29,754 bases of DNA from positions 1-29,754 of IMG/VR virus record IMGVR_UViG_3300025674_000255; one strand, 5' to 3'. The DNA comes from a virus. Within the stretch, counting starts at the first letter, position 1; each line of letters begins with the position of its first letter. Below are positions 4,200-29,754 of this stretch, one piece after another. Both the position numbers and the translations under genes were made by a program. Below the pieces are notes generated by a model, which did not search any database, was not told where the DNA came from, and saw nothing but the letters and a program-made list of their open reading frames with translations.

Positions 4200-4751
4200 T
4201 TACGAATTTGTTCCTTCAGTTACCGTTCCGAGGAGAGCCTCGAAGGTTGATTCAGTCAAGGCGTTGTCCATGAACTTGGGAAGAGTGCGCTCCTGTGCAG
4301 TGAAGGTCAGGGTGTAGCCCGAGAGGTCGCCCATCGCGTTGCCTGTCACCAAAGTGCCTCCAGTTACCTCGCAGCCGTATTCGTGGCCGACGATCATCCT
4401 GTTGTCGTTGTTGTCCACTACGACGATGTGAGGGCGTCCGTGTGCCATGATCGCGAGCTCTGCGTTGTCCTCTTGGGAGAGCTTCTTGAAGGTCAGTTCA
4501 AGGGTGCTCTCGAAGAAGGTCGTGCCCGTCTCGCGTGAGCTGTTGATGTTCGTGGTCAGGGAGGATGCATGGCGCACCTCGTAGACTACTGCATCAACGT
4601 CAGCCGTCCCGGCAGCGTCTGCGATGTCAGTCACCTCACCGCTCACCTCTGTCAAGGTCAACGGCTCGAAGTTGATCAGGTAGATTTTCTTGATCCCACC
4701 GACCACATCTTTGCAAGGCTCTTTCCGTCCGAGTGTTAAGTTGCAAGCCAT
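4200..4751 (-). CDS. Putative major tail (tube) protein
   Basis: A 183-residue protein, right size for a tail tube subunit. It begins MACNLTLGRKEPCKDVVGGIKK and has INSSRETGTTFFESTLELTFK in the middle and GCEVTGGTLVTGNAMGDLSGY followed by LTFTAQE near the C-terminus, a pattern I associate with Bacteroidota phage major tail proteins. The gene stands alone between two strong terminators (4775-4804 and 4111-4137), as expected for a protein needed in high copy. No promoter consensus was seen in the 78 bases upstream, so expression may come from read-through. It could instead be a capsid decoration protein, given that it follows the capsid gene. Confidence 0.6.
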   Translation of the reverse strand: MACNLTLGRKEPCKDVVGGIKKIYLINFEPLTLTEVSGEVTDIADAAGTADVDAVVYEVRHASSLTTNINSSRETGTTFFESTLELTFKKLSQEDNAELAIMAHGRPHIVVVDNNDNRMIVGHEYGCEVTGGTLVTGNAMGDLSGYTLTFTAQERTLPKFMDNALTESTFEALLGTVTEGTNS

Positions 4752-4774: not shown

Positions 4775-4804
4775 AAAAAAAAAGGGAGGGATTCACGCCC
4801 TCCC
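4775..4804 (-). terminator. Intrinsic terminator after major capsid gene
   Basis: Minus strand: stem GGGAGGG/CCCTCCC of 7 bp, 7-base loop, then nine T residues. It lies 26 bases past the capsid stop. Confidence 0.85.
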
Positions 4805-7928: not shown

Positions 7929-8774
7929 ATGAAGTCATGCACATCGATAAGCGGGGGCAGAACTTCCGCATATCTGGCGGCTAATTATCCGACCGATTAC
8001 AATGTCTTTTCCCTTGTGCGAACGATGGACAAGTCCTGCCAATTCCCTCACAGGAACATCAGGCTCATGATCGAAGACTACATTGAGAAGCCCTTCGTCG
8101 GCACATTGGAAGACGACGAAATCATCTACACCATCCTCGACCTTGAGCAACACCTCGGGCATCATATCCATTGGGTGAGCGGTGACCCTTATGAGGATGT
8201 GATCGAGAAGCGGGGGAACTATCTGCCCAACAAGGTGACGAGGTTCTGCACGACAGAGATGAAGCTCAAGCCGATATTCTACTGGTGGGCTGAACACATT
8301 GGCGAGCCTATACGGATGCAGATCGGATTCAGGGCAAACGAAGGGAAGAGAGCGAAGACAATGCAGGCAAAGACAAACGAGAACGGCCTGCTTGAGTTCA
8401 AGGCTACCTTCGGCAAAAATGTCAGAGGTCAGAACAAGTGGGAGATGGTCGAGTGGCAGAAGCCGTCGTTCCCCTTAATCGAGAACGGCATCTTCAAGGA
8501 CGAAATTCAGGCATACTGGGACAAGAACACAGATGTGTACTTCGCGCCCTTCAACAACTGTGTCGGGTGCTTTCATCGAAATCCGATATTCTTGCGAAAG
8601 ATGGCAGAAGAGCACCCCGAGAAGATGGAGTGGTTTGCAAAGCAGGAAGAAAGAGAGCGCAAGGGTCAATGGCGCAGCGACGTGAAATATCGCGACATAA
8701 TCAAAGCGAAGCTACAGATGGAGCTCTCCTTCGACGATTTCAGTGACTGCGATTCAGGATACTGCGGTCTTTAG
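7929..8774 (+). CDS. PP-loop (PAPS reductase / DndC-like) enzyme
   Basis: A 281-residue protein and the only gene on the plus strand. The N-terminal SGGRTSAYL (residues 8-16) is the ATP-pyrophosphatase PP-loop of the adenine nucleotide alpha hydrolase superfamily, which includes PAPS reductases and the phosphorothioation enzyme DndC. TRFCTTEMK (104-112) and NCVGCFHRNP (210-219) supply C107, C211 and C214; C274 and C279 lie in the C-terminal tail. This fits a possible iron-sulfur site, though the ligands are not proven. It would activate a substrate by adenylation, perhaps for sulfur transfer to nucleic acid or to counter host defence. No other dnd-like gene is near. Its last 21 bases overlap convergently with the protease gene. 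Likely a moron with its own promoter. Confidence 0.8.
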   Translation: MKSCTSISGGRTSAYLAANYPTDYNVFSLVRTMDKSCQFPHRNIRLMIEDYIEKPFVGTLEDDEIIYTILDLEQHLGHHIHWVSGDPYEDVIEKRGNYLPNKVTRFCTTEMKLKPIFYWWAEHIGEPIRMQIGFRANEGKRAKTMQAKTNENGLLEFKATFGKNVRGQNKWEMVEWQKPSFPLIENGIFKDEIQAYWDKNTDVYFAPFNNCVGCFHRNPIFLRKMAEEHPEKMEWFAKQEERERKGQWRSDVKYRDIIKAKLQMELSFDDFSDCDSGYCGL

Positions 8775-9527: not shown

Positions 9528-9895
9528 TTCTTTCTTTTATATCCTCCACGCTCACCGATCTCTGCCAGTTCGATGCCGAGCTCCTTCAGCTTGGACGCTG
9601 CCCACCGCTTCCCTGCCTTGCCTCCCCAGAGGAGGTAAGAGATAGTCCCGCAGGCTTTGGTGTCGCTCTCGTCGTAGTACGTTTCTGCTCTGCTCAAATA
9701 GGAGTACATCCGACGGATCACAGCCTCTGTGATGGGTTTTTTTTGTGCGAGTTGCTGCGCTCTTATCTTCCCGGTCTGCGTCGCGCACTTGTTCTTGACC
9801 CGAGCGTTCAGGGCGATGCCCCGCTTGGCGTTGTTGCTTACAGCTTCAGGATAGTCGCTATAAGATTCGAGGATTGTCTTCAGTTTTGCTTTCAT
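9524..9895 (-). CDS. Conserved protein next to tape measure and prohead protease
   Basis: A 123-residue basic helical protein with ATGA overlaps at both ends. It carries SYSDYPEAVSNNAKRGIALN, NKCATQTGKIRAQQLAQKK, MYSYLSRAETYYDESD and CGTISYLLWGGKAGKRWAASK. I recall this module as common in Bacteroidota phages near XkdF-type proteases, in some cases as part of larger proteins, but I cannot name a function. Here it stands alone, three small frames from the protease, which suggests a role in head assembly. No catalytic motif is visible. Confidence 0.7.
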   Translation of the reverse strand: MKAKLKTILESYSDYPEAVSNNAKRGIALNARVKNKCATQTGKIRAQQLAQKKPITEAVIRRMYSYLSRAETYYDESDTKACGTISYLLWGGKAGKRWAASKLKELGIELAEIGERGGYKRKK

Positions 9896-11460
9896 CCGAA
9901 GGAGGCGTTTCGTTCAATTCTTCTGTCGAGTGCTTGGTTGTCTGTCATCTCCCCGCTGACCACATAGGCGCGGGTCGGCTTCTTCCCGAACTGGGCGAGC
10001 GATCGGGTGGCCTGTGTCATCGCTTCATTGCCTCCCAAGATGGAGACGTTCGGGAGGGTGGGCGTGGGTGCGCCCCCTCTGCCTGCTGATGCACCGCCAC
10101 CGCCTCCGAAGCCGTTGGGGATGGGCGTGCTCAAGATGTTGCGAACCTGTGCGAAGCCCGAGGCGAGGGTCAATCCTGCCGCAATCTGTGGCCCGGGAGG
10201 TGGCAGGGGCGTATTGGCGAGCGCGTTCGTGAATGCCTTGTATGTGTCGATGGTTGCCGAGGCGATGGCTGCGGCCTTGCCTGCTGCGCTCTCTCGTCCG
10301 AATATCTCACCGATGACGTTCAGCCCAGTCTGTGCGAGGGCGACCCTTGCTTCTGCAAATTGCTCCTCCGTCCTTTGCTTCTGCTTGGCGATCTGCTCCG
10401 CGATCTCCCCCTCTTTGATCTGTTCGTCGATGCGCTCGAGGTGTGCCTTCTTCCTCGCCTTGTCCATCTCGATCTGTCGGTCGAGCTCTGCGTTGAAGTT
10501 CTCCTCCATGATCGCCTCGTCCTCTTCCTCCATCGCGATGGCCTCCTTCATGGCCTTAATCTTGTCCTCGATGCTCTGCGTCTGCTGCTGCTCGGCTTTG
10601 CTCAATGAGTTCAGGCGGGTGATCATCTCCTTCAGTCGCTTATCCCTGCGCCTCTCAAGGTCGAAGAGTTCAGCCTCGGCCTCCCTCTGCCTCTTGATGT
10701 CCTCGGTCAGGCTCTCACTCATGGCCACCTCCTCGGCAATGATGCGGGCGCGTTCCCTTGCGATCTCGATCTGCTCGTCTGCTTCTTCCCTCTGGAGGCG
10801 TATGGCTTCGCGGAGTGCTGCGGCCTGCTCCTTTCTGCTCTTCGTTTGGTCTTCAGCGGCAAGCCTTAAATCTTCGATCTGCGCCCTTCTTTTTGCCGAA
10901 GTGAGTATCATCTCCGCTTCCTTCTTTTCGAGCTGATCTGTGGCTTCTGCGAGGCCAATGGCGAGCCTTGTCTCTCTTTCTATCTCGTCGCCCACTCCTC
11001 TGACGGCTTCCGCTGCCAGATTCGCGGCCTCCCTGAACTCTCCCTTGAAGACCAAAGTGATCGCTTTGCCGAGCATACTGATGCGGTCGATGACCACATT
11101 GATGGTCGCCCCGATGCCTGCGGTGATCTTGTTGAACATCTCCGCACCCTCTTGCGTCTTGCTGAACATGGTCGCCAATGACCCCACAGCGACGACGAGC
11201 AGGCCGATGCCTGTGGCTGCGATCGCTCCCTTCAGGGTGGTCATGGCCACGACCCCGCTCTTCGCTCCGTTCACGATGCCCCTGAAGGCTGTCACCGCCC
11301 CGCCCGTCATCTTGTCGAGCTGATTGGTCATGCCCTTTGTGGCTGCTGTCGCCTCCTCGGTGGTCTTCTTCGTCTCGTTGAGCTTCCCCTCGAGGTCTTT
11401 GATCTTGCCCTCGGCTGCTTGCGTCCGGGCGATGAGCTCGATTATAACTTCGTTCGCCAT
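9892..11460 (-). CDS. Tail tape measure protein
   Basis: A 522-residue protein from MANEV (ATG 11458-11460); a longer frame to 11496 would overlap the previous gene more deeply. It has an N-terminal helical section, a hydrophobic glycine-rich segment at ~78-100 (GAIAATGIGLLVVAVGSLAT), and a long charged coiled coil at ~165-370 rich in E/K/R/Q. A Gly/Pro-rich end follows (ANTPLPPPGPQIAAG, IPNGFGGGGGASAGRGG). This is the usual layout of tape measures, which set tail length and may enter the host membrane. At about 0.15 nm per residue the tail would be roughly 80 nm. The coiled coil is unusually dominant and repeats are not obvious. Its context, between tail proteins and small genes, agrees. Confidence 0.8.
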   Translation of the reverse strand: MANEVIIELIARTQAAEGKIKDLEGKLNETKKTTEEATAATKGMTNQLDKMTGGAVTAFRGIVNGAKSGVVAMTTLKGAIAATGIGLLVVAVGSLATMFSKTQEGAEMFNKITAGIGATINVVIDRISMLGKAITLVFKGEFREAANLAAEAVRGVGDEIERETRLAIGLAEATDQLEKKEAEMILTSAKRRAQIEDLRLAAEDQTKSRKEQAAALREAIRLQREEADEQIEIARERARIIAEEVAMSESLTEDIKRQREAEAELFDLERRRDKRLKEMITRLNSLSKAEQQQTQSIEDKIKAMKEAIAMEEEDEAIMEENFNAELDRQIEMDKARKKAHLERIDEQIKEGEIAEQIAKQKQRTEEQFAEARVALAQTGLNVIGEIFGRESAAGKAAAIASATIDTYKAFTNALANTPLPPPGPQIAAGLTLASGFAQVRNILSTPIPNGFGGGGGASAGRGGAPTPTLPNVSILGGNEAMTQATRSLAQFGKKPTRAYVVSGEMTDNQALDRRIERNASFG

Positions 11461-11594
11461 GTCATTCTTTTGATAGCCTTCACCGCGCCCCTCCATGTGG
11501 TCGGGAGGTAGTGCCTGCCCTTCGCGATTTCAACGTCCTTACTTATTCCCTTGTGCTCCTCCATCTGGAGCAGCTTGATGATTTCCGTGATCAT
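11442..11594 (-). CDS. Small basic protein before tape measure
   Basis: A 50-residue gene with an ATGA overlap with the large tail protein and a 19-base overlap with the tape measure start. Sequence features: an acidic/hydrophobic N-terminus (MITEIIKLLQMEEHKG) and a basic C-terminal helix (WRGAVKAIKRMTWRTKL). No family recognised. Tight coupling on both sides supports that it is translated. Confidence 0.6.
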   Translation of the reverse strand: MITEIIKLLQMEEHKGISKDVEIAKGRHYLPTTWRGAVKAIKRMTWRTKL

Positions 11595-14191
11595 GCCCTT
11601 TTGACTATGAATGAAGCGTCCGTGATCGTGAGCGTCGTGTTGCCGCTTGCCACCTTCTTGACTCCGATGCTGATGTAGTCCTCTGCGTAACAATGAAGCA
11701 GGCCGACAATCATGACCTCGCTCGACCCGTTCGGCTCGAATGCCACAAAGTTACTCTCGACCCCGTTCACAAGGATAGCGAACTGGAGGTCTTTGGTCGT
11801 CTCGTTGTTGAAGGAGGCGTGGAAGAAAATCTCGGTGATGAAGGTGTCGTTGTGGGTCATGCGCCCCGTCGTGAGGTTCTTCGTAAAGCAGGTGCATTGG
11901 TCGAAGGTGCTTGTGTCGTACTCTACAATTTCTTCGTAGCTCGTCGACATTATGATGCTCTTGTCCGTGTTGATGATCATGTCCAAGACGCGAGGGTTCG
12001 CCAGAAAGGTGAGGTGCTGAATCGCTCCCTGCTGTGCGATGCCTCTGCTCCTGCTCTGATATAGTTCGTCGGGCTTGATGAGGTAGTTGCTGCCCACCTT
12101 CAGAGCCCCCGCGAGCTTGAGCTCTTGGTTCGTTGGGGTCTGATCCCATGTGAGCGTGCCGTCGTTCGCATAGGTGGGGGTGGCTGTCGCCTTCACGTCG
12201 TAGGTGAACAGGTCGAGCGTCGCCCTCCCCTCCGTCATGTTGTAGCTGATCTTCTCAATCTTGTAGGGGCGCGTCGCCACCTGTATGGTGTCGTTCATCT
12301 CAAGGGTCAGCCAGTCCGTCGTGTCGAGGTAGGCGGTCATCTGGACGCGCCTCATCGCGGGGTTGAAGATGCGGTCGAGGTGCGGCCTCCAGTACTTCTC
12401 GAGGAAGGTGTTCGTCGTAATCGCTCTGCTCGGGGGTGTCTCAATGCTGAAGGCGATCGAGTTGTCCGATGTGAGCACAGGCTTGTCGTCCCATGTCCTG
12501 AAGTAGGGGAAGGAGGTTTGATCCACCACGACGGCCGAATCGTTCACCATCTTCCAAGTGAAGGTGGTCGTCTCATATCCTGCCCAGTAGAAGAGGGACA
12601 GCTCCACCTGTATCGGCTCGCCATCCGTGTCCATATACTTGTAGATTTCGAGGTCGGTCGTCCCTATGCGCACCCCTGCCGTGTCCACCTGATTCTCGAG
12701 CGTTGTCGGCATGATGACGAAGGGGCTCTCCACCTCGATGCCGTCGGATGTGAAGTCAAACAAGCCTGCGTTCTCGTACTTGACCGCTCCGTAATCTCTG
12801 GCGAAGGCGTTCTTGAAGCTGATGTTTGCGAGGTCTTCGCTCTCCTTGTGCATCAGCTTGACCGATTCGGGGACTTCCTGCTTGTCTATCTTGACGACGG
12901 AGGTGTCTATCTTGTCCGACCATTCCTTTGTCGCCCCTGCGTTGAGGTAGTCCGTGAGGGGGCTCATGGTGTAGGCCACCCCGTCGGAGGTGGTCAGCAC
13001 CGCGTTGAACATCTTGAGCACTCCACCTATGAAGTCGGTGATCTTCACCTCTGGCATCCCGTCCTCGATCAGGATGGTCGCCCCTGTCTTGAAGGTCGGC
13101 CAGTTGATGAGGTCGTAGACGAGGGTCGCTGTAAAGGCGAGCCCCTGCACCTCTTGCACTTGAAACTTGATCACATCACCCTGCTGCAAGAACATGGTCT
13201 CGTACCTTACGCCCGAGGGGCTTGTGATAAGGTGCGGAGCGTTCGGCGCGACTGCTCCATTCTTTATTGTTCGAATGTTAAAGGATCGCCCCGAGGTGAT
13301 GCTGCTGAAGTCCAGCTTGAAGGTGTAGTCCCCAACGGTTGCCGCTGTGAACTCGCCCGTCGTGTCGTTGAATCTGACGTCGTTGTCCGTGTTCTCTGTG
13401 AAGCCTGCGAGGTCGTTGTAAGATGTCCCCGCTGATACGCTCACAGCGAGCTCCGCGTTCACCTGTGCGTCGTAGCCGTCGAGGAACTTGCCGACCTTCT
13501 CCATCCCCATCATGTAGAGGTTGTCGTCGTCGATGGATGAGTCGAGCGTGAGGGTCTTGCTGATATGCGTGAAGCACTTGGTCAAGATGGTGCTCAATCG
13601 CACCGCAGGGCGTAGCTCTGCCGGGTGTATCGCTCCCCCATCTATGGCGATGCTGTTCTGCGCCATCCCTGCCGTCGAGTAGTTCCACGCTCCCTGCTCT
13701 CTGTCGCCGAAGTCAATGATCGGATAGCGCACCTTCCCGCTCTCCAGAGTGCCACCCCACGATGCCACGACGTTCGTGTAGGTCAGCGCGTGGTCGAGGT
13801 TCATGTTGATGTCGCGCAGGTAGTCATCCCCCCAGAGGGTGGTGAGCTGCTTGTTGCGCCCGTAGAAGTTTACCTCGTAGCTGTCGGGGATGTTGTTCTT
13901 CAGCGTGACATTCATCAGCTCCAGAACGCCCTCGAATATCTGCACGCCCTTGACGCTGATGGATGCCTCTGCCTTGTTGTGTACTGGGTAGGGGTCATCG
14001 ATGTCGAGGTTGTAGAAGTGCGTGAAGATGCCGTTGTTCGTGTCCGTCGCGGGGATGGTGAACGGGCGCGAGAAGTCCGTCCGCGTCGCCCCGAGGTCTG
14101 TCAGGTCTTTCGCCTGCTTAACGAGGGTGATGTCCTCCCCCTTGTATAGGTCAGCGGTGACTCCTCCAATAATTAGCGACACCCTGCTCAT
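11591..14191 (-). CDS. Large tail protein, possible hub/baseplate component
   Basis: An 866-residue beta-rich protein. The N-terminus (SLIIGGVTADLYKGEDITLVKQAKDL broken by TDFSRPFTIPATDTN) and the early blocks (GVQIFEGVLELMNVTLK, SYEVNFYGRN) form a beta-barrel-like domain resembling phage tail-hub proteins. The middle has GGVLKMFNAVLTTSDG and a long beta section; the C-terminal ~170 residues look like a separate beta-sandwich (ITEIFFHASFN, VAFEPNGSSEVMIVGLLHC). It overlaps neighbours by ATGA on both sides. In typical siphophages such proteins follow the tape measure; here it precedes it. It could carry adsorption or tail-tip roles. Assignment is from length, fold impression and position. Confidence 0.6.
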   Translation of the reverse strand: MSRVSLIIGGVTADLYKGEDITLVKQAKDLTDLGATRTDFSRPFTIPATDTNNGIFTHFYNLDIDDPYPVHNKAEASISVKGVQIFEGVLELMNVTLKNNIPDSYEVNFYGRNKQLTTLWGDDYLRDINMNLDHALTYTNVVASWGGTLESGKVRYPIIDFGDREQGAWNYSTAGMAQNSIAIDGGAIHPAELRPAVRLSTILTKCFTHISKTLTLDSSIDDDNLYMMGMEKVGKFLDGYDAQVNAELAVSVSAGTSYNDLAGFTENTDNDVRFNDTTGEFTAATVGDYTFKLDFSSITSGRSFNIRTIKNGAVAPNAPHLITSPSGVRYETMFLQQGDVIKFQVQEVQGLAFTATLVYDLINWPTFKTGATILIEDGMPEVKITDFIGGVLKMFNAVLTTSDGVAYTMSPLTDYLNAGATKEWSDKIDTSVVKIDKQEVPESVKLMHKESEDLANISFKNAFARDYGAVKYENAGLFDFTSDGIEVESPFVIMPTTLENQVDTAGVRIGTTDLEIYKYMDTDGEPIQVELSLFYWAGYETTTFTWKMVNDSAVVVDQTSFPYFRTWDDKPVLTSDNSIAFSIETPPSRAITTNTFLEKYWRPHLDRIFNPAMRRVQMTAYLDTTDWLTLEMNDTIQVATRPYKIEKISYNMTEGRATLDLFTYDVKATATPTYANDGTLTWDQTPTNQELKLAGALKVGSNYLIKPDELYQSRSRGIAQQGAIQHLTFLANPRVLDMIINTDKSIIMSTSYEEIVEYDTSTFDQCTCFTKNLTTGRMTHNDTFITEIFFHASFNNETTKDLQFAILVNGVESNFVAFEPNGSSEVMIVGLLHCYAEDYISIGVKKVASGNTTLTITDASFIVKRA

Positions 14192-15411: not shown

Positions 15412-15986
15412 GCTGTCACTTGGTTTCTGATGTCCTCCTCGAAGGCTTCGATTATCTTCTGTTCGTATTTGTCACGCGCCTGCTCCTCGGGCTCGCTGAA
15501 GAAGTGCGTCGGCTCGATGCCAAACCACTTGATTTTTCTGTTCATTAAGAAGGCCATGCTCCTCATGTTGCTCTCCGTCTTCTCGATGAACTGCCCGGTC
15601 GTGAGGTCGCGGGGCTGTATTCTGCTTGCGTCGATCCAGTCTCTCATCTTCGCGGGCGGGATGCCTCTCCCCTGCGCCACGCCCTTCATGAATGGATAAC
15701 GGCCTCGGTCTAAATAGAAGCCATAATCGAGCCCCTTGTATTTGACCACGATGCTCTGGCCGTCCTCCTTGAGTTCATAGCCGAGGGACTTCTGAAGCCT
15801 TCCCGTGGCCTTGAGGTCGCGCTGCGCTTTCTTGAACTCGAAGCCTGTCGGCCTGCCGTTCTTCCATTTAGCGCGGACGTTCTTCCGTGTCTGCCGTGCT
15901 CCGAGGTTCTGCTTCGCCTTCTTGACGACCCAGTCGCCCATTTCGGTCAGCACCTCCTCGAGCCGTGGGAATTTAGCAGAGGCCAT
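15408..15986 (-). CDS. HK97 gp10-like tail completion protein (putative)
   Basis: A 192-residue basic protein. The middle LKATGRLQKSLGYELKEDGQ followed by VVKYKGLDYGFYLDRGRYPF resembles the core of HK97 gp10-like proteins, in which a TGxLxxSL helix is followed by a strand and a YxxYxxxG turn. A long N-terminal helix with FPRLEEVLTEMGDWVVKKAK fits too. Such proteins help join tail to head. It overlaps the upstream gene by 14 bases and the downstream gene by ATGA. Confidence in the fold is moderate because key features are short. Confidence 0.5.
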   Translation of the reverse strand: MASAKFPRLEEVLTEMGDWVVKKAKQNLGARQTRKNVRAKWKNGRPTGFEFKKAQRDLKATGRLQKSLGYELKEDGQSIVVKYKGLDYGFYLDRGRYPFMKGVAQGRGIPPAKMRDWIDASRIQPRDLTTGQFIEKTESNMRSMAFLMNRKIKWFGIEPTHFFSEPEEQARDKYEQKIIEAFEEDIRNQVTA

Positions 15987-16446
15987 CGGTCGTCGTTGCG
16001 TTTGGTGCGGTGATGCTGATCGTCGCGCTCCACCCTGCGAGGCTGTTCGTCTGCGTCTCGAGGAAGCTCTGGAGCGTCACCCCTCCATCGAGCTGAAGGT
16101 TGTCCGCGTGGCGGTCGCCCCTCCTGAACTCGTCGAGCCAGATGTGAAAGGTGAGGGCGCAGTCGTTTAAGATGTCCTGCACGTTGTCCGTCCCGTGGAA
16201 GGAGACAGGCGCATCCCGCACGTCGTCCTTGTTGAAGTCCACCTGATCGAAGATGCTGATGTTGAAGCTCCACGTCGAGGTCGCTCCGTTCATTGTGCAA
16301 TTCTCTGGTGTGATGTGGGCGATGGGGTATATGTTCTGCTTGTTGAGATCAACGTCCCCGAGGTTGCCGAAGGTGATAGTGTTCACCCTGCTCGTCGCCT
16401 CGATGGCCTGCCTGATCTGTCCGGTGATTCTGTAAAAGTTAGCCAT
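15973..16446 (-). CDS. Putative tail terminator / head-tail joining protein
   Basis: A 157-residue protein starting 9 bases after the tail chaperone stop. It has an N-terminal helix (YRITGQIRQAIEAT), a hydrophobic strand (IYPIAHITPENC), FNISIFDQVDFNKDD, and a C-terminal LQSFLETQTNSLAGWSATISI. Alternating helix and strand with a GWxxxxxI ending matches tail-completion proteins of other Bacteroidota phages as I remember them. The -1 frame extension of the chaperone ends inside its first codons. Confidence 0.5.
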   Translation of the reverse strand: MANFYRITGQIRQAIEATSRVNTITFGNLGDVDLNKQNIYPIAHITPENCTMNGATSTWSFNISIFDQVDFNKDDVRDAPVSFHGTDNVQDILNDCALTFHIWLDEFRRGDRHADNLQLDGGVTLQSFLETQTNSLAGWSATISITAPNATTTDGLC

Positions 16447-16690
16447 GTGCCTGCTTTAGTCTTCTTCGTTCGTATTCGTCCCTGTCGCTCTCGTAAGCAA
16501 GCCAGAACAGCGCTCGATGAAGCGGAAGTGATGTGATGGAATCAGCTCTTGTAGGGTCTCCGTCGCATAGCCGATGGATCGCTGCAAACCACCCCCACTT
16601 CTTGAGGAAGTTGTCCCCTCCGATGCCTCCATCGCTTCGGGGCTCAAAGATTTCAGGATATGCATCGACAAATGTGTTCCGATGCGATAA
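16439..16690 (-). CDS. -1 frameshift extension of tail assembly chaperone (83 codons)
   Basis: After the T9 run in the chaperone gene, the -1 frame stays open for 83 codons and ends at TAA 16439-16441, overlapping the next start. It encodes a protein-like sequence: NTFVDAYPEIFEPRSDGG, then FLKKWGWFAAIHRL, CDGDPTRADSITSLPLHRAL and FWLAYESDRDEYERRR. This looks like the C-terminal domain of tail chaperone T-type products, whereas the 0-frame end is a less natural sequence. It has no start codon of its own, so it is expected only as a fusion: 162 chaperone residues plus 83, giving 245. A simple one-base indel in the assembly would give the same protein as the sole product, which remains an alternative. 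Confidence 0.7.
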   Translation of the reverse strand, partial: LSHRNTFVDAYPEIFEPRSDGGIGGDNFLKKWGWFAAIHRLCDGDPTRADSITSLPLHRALFWLAYESDRDEYERRRLKQAHG

Positions 16691-17175
16691 AAAAAAAGCA
16701 GGGCTGCGATGGCCGTCCCTGCGCTCATCTTCTTGATCACCTCGCTGTCCCCGTCCGCGTTGTAGGGCTCGATCTCATAGCGGTCGCCCATGCTCCTAAC
16801 GATGGGGCGGTAAAGGATCGCCATGATCTTGTCCAAGCTCTCCATGTTGTACTGATATTTCTCGAGGTCGATAAACTCCCCGAAGGTGATCTCGTCGAGG
16901 TTCGGGTGGAAGCCGTAGTCTTTACCGAAGAGGCTGAAGGCTTGCGTGAACTCGGGTTCTCTGTTGAGCACCTCGAGTATCTGGGCGATGATGGCCTCCC
17001 GGTCTTTCACCTTCATGTCCATCGCGTCGAGCTCGTTGATGCCGCAGAAGTAGGCGAGGGCTTTCACTTGGATGAACTCCTCCTTCGCGTCGGTGTCGAT
17101 CGCGCTGAACTTCATGTAAGCCTCGAGGGTGATGTCCTCCCATGAGGTGGGGACTATGACTTTGATCTCGCGCAT
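16456..17175 (-). CDS. Tail assembly chaperone (0-frame product)
   Basis: A 239-residue frame from ATG 17173-17175, the first after a promoter; longer upstream readings lie inside the terminase frame. It has MREIKVIVPTSWEDITLEAY and YGFHPNLDEITFGEFIDLE followed by MAILYRPIVRSM and IAALLFFYRIG, a pattern I recall from genes upstream of tape measures in Bacteroidota phages. Codons 160-162 (CTT TTT TTT) form a T TTT TTT slippery heptamer. Beyond this point the 0-frame end (GTTSSRSGGG, RFIERCSGLLTRATGTNTNEED without order) looks less like folded protein than the -1 frame, so this 239-residue product may be the minor or truncated form. It would bind tape measure during tail assembly. Confidence 0.65.
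   Translation of the reverse strand: MREIKVIVPTSWEDITLEAYMKFSAIDTDAKEEFIQVKALAYFCGINELDAMDMKVKDREAIIAQILEVLNREPEFTQAFSLFGKDYGFHPNLDEITFGEFIDLEKYQYNMESLDKIMAILYRPIVRSMGDRYEIEPYNADGDSEVIKKMSAGTAIAALLFFYRIGTHLSMHILKSLSPEAMEASEGTTSSRSGGGLQRSIGYATETLQELIPSHHFRFIERCSGLLTRATGTNTNEED
16690..16696 (-). promoter_or_regulatory. Slippery heptamer T TTT TTT for -1 frameshift
   Basis: Within a run of nine T residues on the minus strand (16689-16697), the chaperone codons CTT TTT TTT present the canonical X XXY YYZ slip site in the correct phase. The downstream -1 frame is open for 83 codons. A stimulatory structure downstream was not identified by eye. Confidence 0.65.
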
Positions 17176-17204: not shown

Positions 17205-18356
17205 TTATCTCAAGTGGTACTTCCCGTGGTTCGGCTTGCCCACCTTGCTGAAGATCGCGTACCTGCTCGCGTCGATGGCGTGGTTGAAAGCATCGACTGG
17301 CTTGTTCAGGTTGCGCCCGTCCTTGTCCTTCGTCCACTTGTAGTTTCGCAGCTCCTTGATGAGGTTGGTGCTTGAGGGCTCGACGTGAATCTTGAAGGTC
17401 TTCATCAGTTGGATGCCCGCGTTCACGCTGTCCTTGCCCTTGTCTGCGGGGCGCACGTTCCACCCCATCCTCCGCAGCTCCTCGATGCTCTTGGGCTCTG
17501 CGCTGTCGCAGTAGATGATGTCGCGCCTGTCGATGTTGAGGTTCTTCAGTTCCCTCCCTATGTCTTGGTTCGTCATGTCGGTGCGGTAGATGCGCTCCTT
17601 GATCCATACGTCGTCCCCCTGCTGCCAGACCTCAACGAATGCGGTCGGGTCATTCGTGAAGCCGAAGTCCATGCCCATCGACATCAGCTTCGCCTCCTTC
17701 GGGATGTCGCGCTCGTCGAAGGTGAAGACGTTGTCGCGGCTGATCGCTCGCTCCCCGAGGCCATAAACTTGCCACGCTTGTGGGTCTGTCTCCTTGAGCC
17801 GTTCGATGCGCTGAATGGTGAGGGCATCGAGGAAGGGGTTGTTTCGGTATGTGCTCTTGATGAAGTGCGCCCGAGGGATCACGTCCTCGTAGAGCCAATG
17901 GTATTCGTCCGACGGGTTGAAGTCGATAAATATCTGCTCGGTCGTTCGGAGCTCGAGCTGAAGAAAGTCTTCCTTCGCCAGTTCGTTCGCTTCATTACAG
18001 AAGAGGATGTGTCTCTTCGCTCCTCTCTTCTTCTGGGGGTCGTCCATCCCCATGAACTCGAAGCGGTTGCCGTTGATGAAGTAGATGTTGTCCGACTTGT
18101 TGTGGAGGCTTTGGTCGTACATCTGCGCCTTCTCCAGTATCTCGAAGAAGTCGCGCATCGCTGTGGAGCGTAAAGACTTGAGGGTCTTCCTTGCGATTGT
18201 GAAGGTCTTGCCTGTGGTCTGGTGCGCTTTGATGATGAGCACCTGAAGGATCGAGTAGGTCTTCCCCGATCGGCTGCCGCCCTGATTGACGACGATGGAC
18301 TCGGTGGCCTCGAGGTTCTTCCTGAACAGGCCGGACGTCTCAAGGCGTGCTTTCAA
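17205..18356 (-). CDS. terL: Terminase large subunit
   Basis: A 383-residue packaging motor. The ATPase half has Walker A GGSRSGKT (26-33) and Walker B HILFCNEAN with acidic E122. The nuclease half has the three acidic clusters of the RNase H-like fold: GMDFG (D230), YCDSAEP (D284) and DAFNHAIDASRY (D355/D362). It would cut and pump concatemeric DNA into the prohead through the portal. It overlaps the small-subunit candidate by ATGA. The length is slightly short but all motifs are there. Its neighbours differ from the usual order: portal is not next but at the far end of the structural genes. Confidence 0.93.
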   Translation of the reverse strand: MKARLETSGLFRKNLEATESIVVNQGGSRSGKTYSILQVLIIKAHQTTGKTFTIARKTLKSLRSTAMRDFFEILEKAQMYDQSLHNKSDNIYFINGNRFEFMGMDDPQKKRGAKRHILFCNEANELAKEDFLQLELRTTEQIFIDFNPSDEYHWLYEDVIPRAHFIKSTYRNNPFLDALTIQRIERLKETDPQAWQVYGLGERAISRDNVFTFDERDIPKEAKLMSMGMDFGFTNDPTAFVEVWQQGDDVWIKERIYRTDMTNQDIGRELKNLNIDRRDIIYCDSAEPKSIEELRRMGWNVRPADKGKDSVNAGIQLMKTFKIHVEPSSTNLIKELRNYKWTKDKDGRNLNKPVDAFNHAIDASRYAIFSKVGKPNHGKYHLR

Positions 18357-29028: not shown

Positions 29029-29754
29029 ACGATGTCGAAATAGGTGTTAATGTTCCCCTCGATGCCCGTGCCTCCGCCCGTTGTAACCGTTCCAAGGTTT
29101 GCGGATTGCTCGGAGTCGAAGATTATTAATTCAGCAGTTTTAAGTTTTGCGGGACGAGAAGTGCCATTTGGAGAATTCCCAATAACTGTGTTTTCTAATC
29201 CACTCGTGAAATCTGTTGAACCTTTTGTACCACTCGTAGATGAGCCATTAATACTTATAACTACATCACTACTTCGTTTGATAAAACCAATTAAACTTCT
29301 TTGTGTTGCTGAAGCAAGTGATAATGTTGTAGTAGCCGCATTATTTGTAAAATATATATCGGCTGTATCTCTATATAAAATACGCATAGGCTGGTCAGGT
29401 GAGCCAACACTACTATCATTAATTATTGAATTTTGAAATGTTTGCAGCGTGTAGTCTTGAATCTTGGAATCCATAAAAATAGACCACTCGGAAGCCAAGC
29501 TATAAAGGTCTATGGACTGCCCAATGTCGAGTAAATCATCCACCCCATCAAAGTCAATTGCCGCCTTGCCGTTCTCTTCAACCAATGTCCCTGCACTCAC
29601 GACAAGTGGCTGCTCGGATTCGGTCGAGTTGGTCGCATCGTTGCCGTTGCCCGTTTGGTCGTACCAAGTTGTTACATGTCCATCTGCGGTAATCTGCACC
29701 ACCTCAAAATCGTCAATATCACCCGTGAAACTACCGCTTACCTCCAACCCCCAA
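29025..29754 (-). CDS. Tail fibre / receptor-binding protein, C-terminal part (same gene as 1-1245)
   Basis: This is the remainder of the fibre frame after the circular join: about 200 residues beyond the 127-base repeat, ending at a TGA that overlaps the next start by ATGA. It continues the LamG/ConA-like lectin fold: AIDFDGVDDLLDIG, then a beta-rich stretch, and a C-terminal strand block (KLKTAELIIFDSEQSAN, GIEGNINTYFDIV) typical of this domain's end. An extra TVTTGGGT stretch sits just before the final motif. The stretch 29100-29500 is strikingly AT-rich for this genome (two sampled 60-base lines are 32-37% GC against 57% for a line in the tail genes). A recently exchanged receptor-binding domain is the likely reason. 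Confidence 0.8.
   Translation of the reverse strand, partial: WGLEVSGSFTGDIDDFEVVQITADGHVTTWYDQTGNGNDATNSTESEQPLVVSAGTLVEENGKAAIDFDGVDDLLDIGQSIDLYSLASEWSIFMDSKIQDYTLQTFQNSIINDSSVGSPDQPMRILYRDTADIYFTNNAATTTLSLASATQRSLIGFIKRSSDVVISINGSSTSGTKGSTDFTSGLENTVIGNSPNGTSRPAKLKTAELIIFDSEQSANLGTVTTGGGTGIEGNINTYFDIV
29628..29754. repeat. Terminal direct repeat, right copy (circular join)
   Basis: Exact second copy of bases 1-127. Removing one copy leaves a unit of 29,627 bp. The join falls within the tail-fibre gene, in the codons for its WYDQTGNGNDATN motif. Confidence 0.95.

Follow-up and report, generated by a model that had tools for sequence, protein, structure and literature searches.

The gene that directly follows the large terminase gene in this virus very likely encodes two products, the second of them through a programmed shift into the −1 frame at an invariant run of nine T residues (T9), and by analogy the two proteins probably serve as a tail assembly chaperone (TAC). 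The device is of a known kind, i.e. programmed frameshifts in tail assembly genes have already been described. As far as the open literature shows, what is new is the family, the single invariant kind of slip signal that it keeps across large divergence, the 231-nt end of the 0 frame, and the contrast with homologues that encode both parts in one frame. No prior report of this frameshift was found in the open-licence literature searched.

The gene and its two reading frames

The window, i.e. the whole stretch of DNA that was analysed (29,754 nt), carries an exact terminal direct repeat of 127 bp (1-127 = 29628-29754), a repeat that makes it probable that the phage genome is complete and circularly closed. 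Apparently its sole long plus-strand gene is located at 7929-8774, with a product whose SGGRTS-like start presumably resembles that of phosphoadenosine phosphosulfate reductase family proteins. The features of the late gene cluster are the following:

16456..17175, minus strand: 0-frame ORF, 239 aa plus TAA, with a tail-assembly-chaperone-like N-terminal domain (residues ~1-181; phrog_32199) and a 77-codon tail past the slip site
16689..16697, minus strand: T9 run, the predicted slip site; exactly T9 in 151/159 unique relatives and in 149/154 extension-first loci
16690..16696, minus strand: T TTT TTT heptamer, in phase, within the T9 run, as read from the sequence
16439..16690, minus strand: −1 extension, 83 codons plus TAA, a domain with a [KR]WGW[YFW] motif (all-helical in AlphaFold2; a separate gp39 in Nonlabens phage P12024S); predicted fused product 245 aa
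16459..16689, minus strand: dual-coded overlap, 77 codons of the 0-frame tail over the −1 extension, with a depletion of changes altering both proteins
15973..16446, minus strand: next gene, 157 aa, its first 8 nt overlapping the end of the −1 extension; phrog_30964 (unknown function)
17205..18356, minus strand: large terminase gene, directly upstream; Pfam Terminase_3, E 9e-29
9892..11496, minus strand: tape measure protein gene, four genes downstream; phrog_9483 (tail length tape measure protein), E 6.5e-15

The 0-frame ORF (17175-16456) extends from ATG 17175-17173 to TAA 16458-16456, and its codons 160-163 read CTT TTT TTT TAT. After codon 162, the −1 frame contains 83 open codons before its TAA at 16441-16439, which gives a total product of 245 aa; its final 8 nt overlap the start of the next gene (ATG 16446). 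The 239-aa and 245-aa products have identical first 162 residues and different C-termini. The initial annotation had named codons 160-162 (CTT TTT TTT) with their in-phase heptamer and an 83-codon −1 frame up to TAA 16439-16441, and all of these numbers were right. Both product lengths that it gave, 239 and 245 residues, were right as well, and the overlap with the start of the next gene that it mentioned is present and comprises 8 nt. The profile of phrog_32199 (unknown function) matches the 0-frame protein with E 3.4e-17 over residues 5-181, and it is matched by 21 of 29 relatives.

Codon usage does not account for the T9 run, because the genome favours TTC over TTT (200 vs 39); likewise, CTC/CTG are found 285 times vs 43 times for CTT. 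When the −1 frame is recoded synonymously, the 0 frame stays open in 18% of the cases, so that its openness in a single sequence is not significant. As an open 0 frame alone is unremarkable, the case for a frameshift rests on conservation. Taken as a whole, the T9 arrangement goes well beyond what chance would give.

The window contains a second 9-base homopolymer at 4775-4783, which reads A9 in the given strand and T9 in the coding one and lies in the gap that separates the tail-tube candidate (4200-4751) from the capsid gene, and one relative (L195) has a further T9 at 13194, past its tail-tube candidate. Both are possibly terminator U-tracts.

Conservation of the T run in relatives

All 12 close IMG/VR loci (84-99% identity) have exactly T9 with both frames open, and those that are complete at this stretch have the same terminal codons as the window gene. 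An alignment-based scan gave 38 distant loci (22-33% identity), and a T run of 8-10 with an in-phase heptamer is present in every one of them. The run is T9 except for three T10 or T8 cases in the set read, and all loci that are complete at this stretch have an open −1 frame. The alignment of homologues that the initial annotation had recommended as a check thus finds the T run and both frames conserved, in the 12 close loci as well as in the 38 distant ones where complete.

Searches with the extension only, which were done with clade alignments, are blind to the upstream sequence and cannot favour any run there. The marine-clade search yielded 74 new loci, and in 74 of 74 the run is exactly T9 and its phase is the same. 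With another alignment of the extension, at least 573 contigs were matched, the best 80 of which comprised 75 cases of T9, four of T10, and one of T12. Combined, 149 of the 154 extension-first loci have exactly T9 and five have T10 or T12, and in-frame joining of the extension to the N-terminal part was found in none of them (0/154; 74 plus the best 80 of at least 573). After removal of duplicates, 151 of 159 sequences carry exactly T9; a T run of at least 8 was required for this count, and the two extension-first scans had no such filter. Every relative read (12 close, 38 distant, and 74 plus the best 80 extension-first loci) has kept a T run at this point.

The shortest run seen, T8 (T TTT TTG), is that of a GC-rich relative (L034, 69% GC in the gene), in which TTG is used for Leu at the slip site and 0 of the 19 other upstream Leu codons are TTR. 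Two loci (L273 and L274) have one extra Phe codon; one has T12, and in the other, L274, a TTC comes after T10, its C holding the run shorter. No prophages carrying the gene were found in scans of sequenced bacterial genomes.

Coding signature and constraint in the overlap

For 45 unique marine sequences, the mean gene diversity was calculated at the 0-frame codon positions 1/2/3. The values are.227/.074/.407 upstream of the run,.170/.254/.268 in the overlap, and.112/.372/.154 past the 0-frame stop. The coding frame therefore changes from 0 to −1 at the run, with both frames active along the overlap.

In the window clade, 40 derived states were found in the 231-nt overlap. Twenty-two are silent in the −1 frame only, 11 in the 0 frame only, and four in both frames, while three alter both proteins. 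The last value compares with an expectation of 15.1 (3/40; binomial p 1.4e-5, not corrected for phylogeny), and because these double-changing states are depleted, purifying selection appears to act on the 77-codon 0-frame tail in the window clade. For the marine clade, 0-frame constraint is indicated by the suppressed diversity at the third positions of the −1 frame. The constraint is claimed for these two clades only. Clade C44 has 23 double-nonsynonymous changes vs 18.5 expected, i.e. no 0-frame signal, and in the other small clades the dual-coding test had too few changes or the 0-frame signal was absent. Across the sampled set, the 0-frame tail extends from 19 to 85 codons from the run. 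Because its length varies and some clades are without sign of 0-frame constraint, the tail is not a universal feature.

The extension domain and its joined-frame homologues

According to the initial annotation, the extension is well ordered and the end of the 0 frame is not, and structure prediction agrees with this view. AlphaFold2 models the extension alone (30 rows) as all-helical with a mean pLDDT of 79.7, vs values <50 for residues 188-239 of the 0-frame product, the tail of which had few aligned rows. A fold search of predicted viral proteins matched proteins that cover both parts. Two-domain homologues in a single frame are encoded by the Flavobacterium phages 23T, 2A, and FPSV (293 aa), laban6-1 and Cellulophaga phage Ingeline (301 aa), Polaribacter phage Leef (259 aa), and Microcystis phage Mea-Yong924-1 (274 aa). 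The joined-frame homologues in cultured phages have T6 or no T run at the slip position. When aligned with the joined family by hhalign, the N domain corresponds to columns 13-221 (E 6.7e-14) and the extension to columns 208-303 (E 6.2e-07).

Judged from these alignments, the extension is a genuine domain, because distant cultured flavophages carry both parts in one frame; and because the same two domains occur joined in cultured phages, the fused protein is an established form. The initial annotation had held that homologues with both parts joined and no slip site would speak against a frameshift. Such homologues do exist in distant cultured phages, and there are none among the extension-first loci of the T9 family (0/154). 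The joined distant homologues therefore mark the extension as a real domain, and not the T9 family as an artefact. The Duneviridae/Helgolandviridae homologues (Flavobacterium 23T, 2A, FPSV, laban6-1; Cellulophaga Ingeline; Polaribacter Leef) resemble the T9 gene in having both domains and in their location in the tail cluster, but they have one frame and T6 or no run, and only the fused form is expected from them. The T9 phages, with high probability, reach the fused form through a change of frame and produce a second form besides. Taken together, the invariant run, the frame switch in diversity, and the joined homologues strongly support the original proposal of a programmed −1 transition at T9 that adds a functional extension.

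In Flavobacterium phage 6H, the gp10 protein (L293 10352-10927) has 191 aa, vs 293 aa in its relatives. Around TGT TTT TTC, a 2-nt insertion plus about 25 nt that are scrambled in comparison with 23T and FPSV truncate gp10. The difference could be a replaced segment or an assembly fault.

Level of the proposed frame transition

In the proposed mechanism, most decoding would remain in frame and yield the 239-aa protein. Some decoding events would slip back one base at T TTT TTT, or read an extra-U transcript, and yield the 245-aa protein, in which the conserved helical C-terminal domain would replace the 0-frame tail. The occurrence of the slip, its efficiency and level, and also the chaperone function discussed below, are what we infer from the sequences.

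An in-phase U UUU UUU is always present (T TTT TTG in the GC-rich L034). For this reason ribosomal slippage, which would be sufficient, remains the default and is somewhat favoured. No conserved downstream RNA structure was detected across 24 loci, the mean z values being −0.34 (60 nt) and −0.46 (90 nt). A hairpin in the window, GCATCG...CGATGC, was considered as a stimulator and rejected, as it is disrupted in L004 and no common signal exists among the 24 loci. Not every known −1 frameshift signal needs a downstream stimulator.

Alternatively, the RNA polymerase may stutter on T9 and produce mixed mRNA, in which case the fused protein would come from extra-U transcripts without any need for a ribosomal slip. 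We regard this as a possibility to be taken seriously, if not as the expected one. Bacterial RNA polymerase is documented to slip on runs of 9 A or T (PMC5009743). Sites of this type have nine or more A or T and act irrespective of codon phase. The 151 unique T9 sequences have the run in phase 1 (125) or in phase 2 (26), with about five phase switches by parsimony, and in the phase-2 sequences the Leu following the Phe pair is always encoded by TTR, though TTR is often a minority Leu codon in the gene. Both observations are in favour of transcriptional slippage: T TTT TTT needs only seven residues, yet T9 is kept in 151 of the 159 unique sequences despite the differing codon phase. The absence of a conserved downstream RNA structure among the 24 loci is also compatible with it. 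However, the in-phase heptamer is always there too, the residues in both frames (V/L/I-F-F-Y/W/C in the 0 frame and F-F-L/F in the −1 frame) could fix most of the flanking Ts, and the lineages are not fully independent. Because the residues of both frames also constrain the bases of the run, the ribosomal and the transcriptional level are not separable. Of the frameshift described in the initial annotation, the −1 transition is thus supported, whereas its assignment to the ribosome is not distinguishable from slippage in transcription.

Genes with transcriptional slippage, such as dnaX of Thermus and mxiE of Shigella, are similar in that about nine identical A or T residues are conserved within the gene and two products are made. 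They differ from the T9 family, which also has the in-phase ribosomal heptamer and is known here from DNA alone. We tentatively put forward a wider proposal, which we consider doubtful as a whole: T9 would be a transcriptional-slippage site at which the RNA polymerase sets the product ratio and selection holds the run at nine across phases, the gene family would be a very large one in marine Bacteroidetes phages, and in the window clade two functional C-termini would be encoded in the same 231 nt.

Predicted function of the protein pair

The closest functional model is lambda gpG/gpGT (PMC5009743). By analogy, the product pair would most likely act as a tail assembly chaperone, with the common part binding the tape measure protein and the extension recruiting tail tube subunits, and it is likely that the T9 gene works like G/GT. 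Lambda and the dsDNA phage family of Xu, Hendrix and Duda share with it a small gene in the late tail region, an in-phase −1 slippery heptamer, a fused product with a different conserved C-terminal domain, and the conservation of both frames over large distances. In lambda-type cases, a frameshift, −1 or other, joins two overlapping ORFs near the end of the first, the short form greatly outnumbers the long one, neither form is found in virions, and the pair binds the tape measure and tail tube proteins; for the T9 gene, we infer the slip from the conserved T9, the conserved frames, and the diversity switch. Unlike its lambda counterpart, the T9 gene is located away from the tape measure gene and has no detectable homology to known TACs, and the slip signal of its family is always a T run of about nine. 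In annotated actinobacteriophage cases, the 0-frame stop is on average 26 nt from the slip (PMC10885494), whereas the 0-frame product of the window continues for 77 codons (231 nt).

The order of the late cluster is terminase, T9 gene, small tail-completion-like genes, two larger genes, tape measure, and capsid plus portal; the succession of terminase, T9 gene, tail genes, and tape measure recurs in another record. The initial annotation had placed the gene just upstream of the tape measure block, which turned out to be inexact: it adjoins the large terminase gene and is separated by four genes from the tape-measure match. The lambda order, i.e. a location between the major tail protein and tape measure genes and directly upstream of the latter, is not found in the window. 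No TAC family was matched in Pfam or PHROGs, with nothing credible from Pfam, a PDB fold search with the 0-frame model gave no match, and the best TAC-named match among predicted viral structures had an E value of 0.18. As neither a TAC family nor a PDB fold nor a lambda-like order was found, the chaperone reading rests on architecture and neighbourhood. Of the proposed lambda G/GT identity, the frameshift architecture is supported, and the TAC family, the PDB fold, and the lambda gene order are not; membership in a described TAC family is not supported.

The location behind the terminase and not behind the major tail gene, together with the absence of TAC homology by sequence (Pfam, PHROGs) and by fold (PDB), could also indicate that the frameshifted gene has a different structural or assembly role, e.g. 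that of a neck or terminator accessory protein. We consider this unlikely, albeit not negligible, because a C-terminus that is exchanged or lengthened through a −1 frameshift, in a small gene of a tail cluster, is the mark of TAC genes, and the joined homologue of Cellulophaga phage Ingeline is encoded two genes ahead of the tape measure gene.

The Nonlabens phages and alternative annotations

Among about 50,000 phage records, the only matches of the 0-frame protein are those of the Nonlabens (Persicivirga) phages P12024S/L, with 31.5% identity to the window protein over the aligned part (~34% in the alignment). In P12024S, the locus is NC_018271 23136-23830 (L014 3510-4204), and it is the same in L015. 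The homologous gene has the identical CTTTTTTTTTATC site and an open −1 frame that runs through gp39 (55 aa as annotated), the sequence of which carries on the same domain (FFLS.R...D.YPE.., KW.W, WLAY.SD). In contrast to the window gene, its 0-frame tail has about one third of the length, and two genes are annotated: GenBank lists gp38 and gp39 as two hypothetical genes without a frameshift (phrog_32199 and phrog_38404). Conservation of the −1 frame sets in with the T run (FFLS.R...), upstream of the ATG that is annotated for gp39. Very probably, gp38 and gp39 are one frameshifted gene, with gp39 as the 3′ portion of its −1 extension.

The GenBank entry for gp39 (55 aa) implies two separate proteins, with the extension translated from its own start. 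This is very improbable, as conservation in the −1 frame begins with the T run, ahead of that start, T9 would have no role, and homologues occur as one fused protein. A sequencing error or a recent frameshift mutation in a single 245-aa gene with a true T10 (or T7) might be suspected, as homopolymers are error-prone and distant cultured relatives encode both parts in one frame, but this reading, like phase variation, was rejected as extremely improbable, because exactly T9 is found in the consensus sequences of well over 100 independent assemblies and in two isolate genomes, 0 of the 154 extension-first loci are joined in frame, and the 0-frame tail is itself constrained.

Implications

With the two-product interpretation, two PHROG families of unknown function become one two-product gene that is present in at least 573 uncultured viral contigs, and the frameshifted protein is one that gene callers split or truncate. 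If the run works via the RNA polymerase, it would be a new way to make a G/GT-like pair. Cultured systems are on offer, namely Nonlabens phage P12024S, with Ingeline and Leef as natural joined-frame controls, and they would allow asking how tailed Bacteroidetes phages set the ratio of two assembly proteins.
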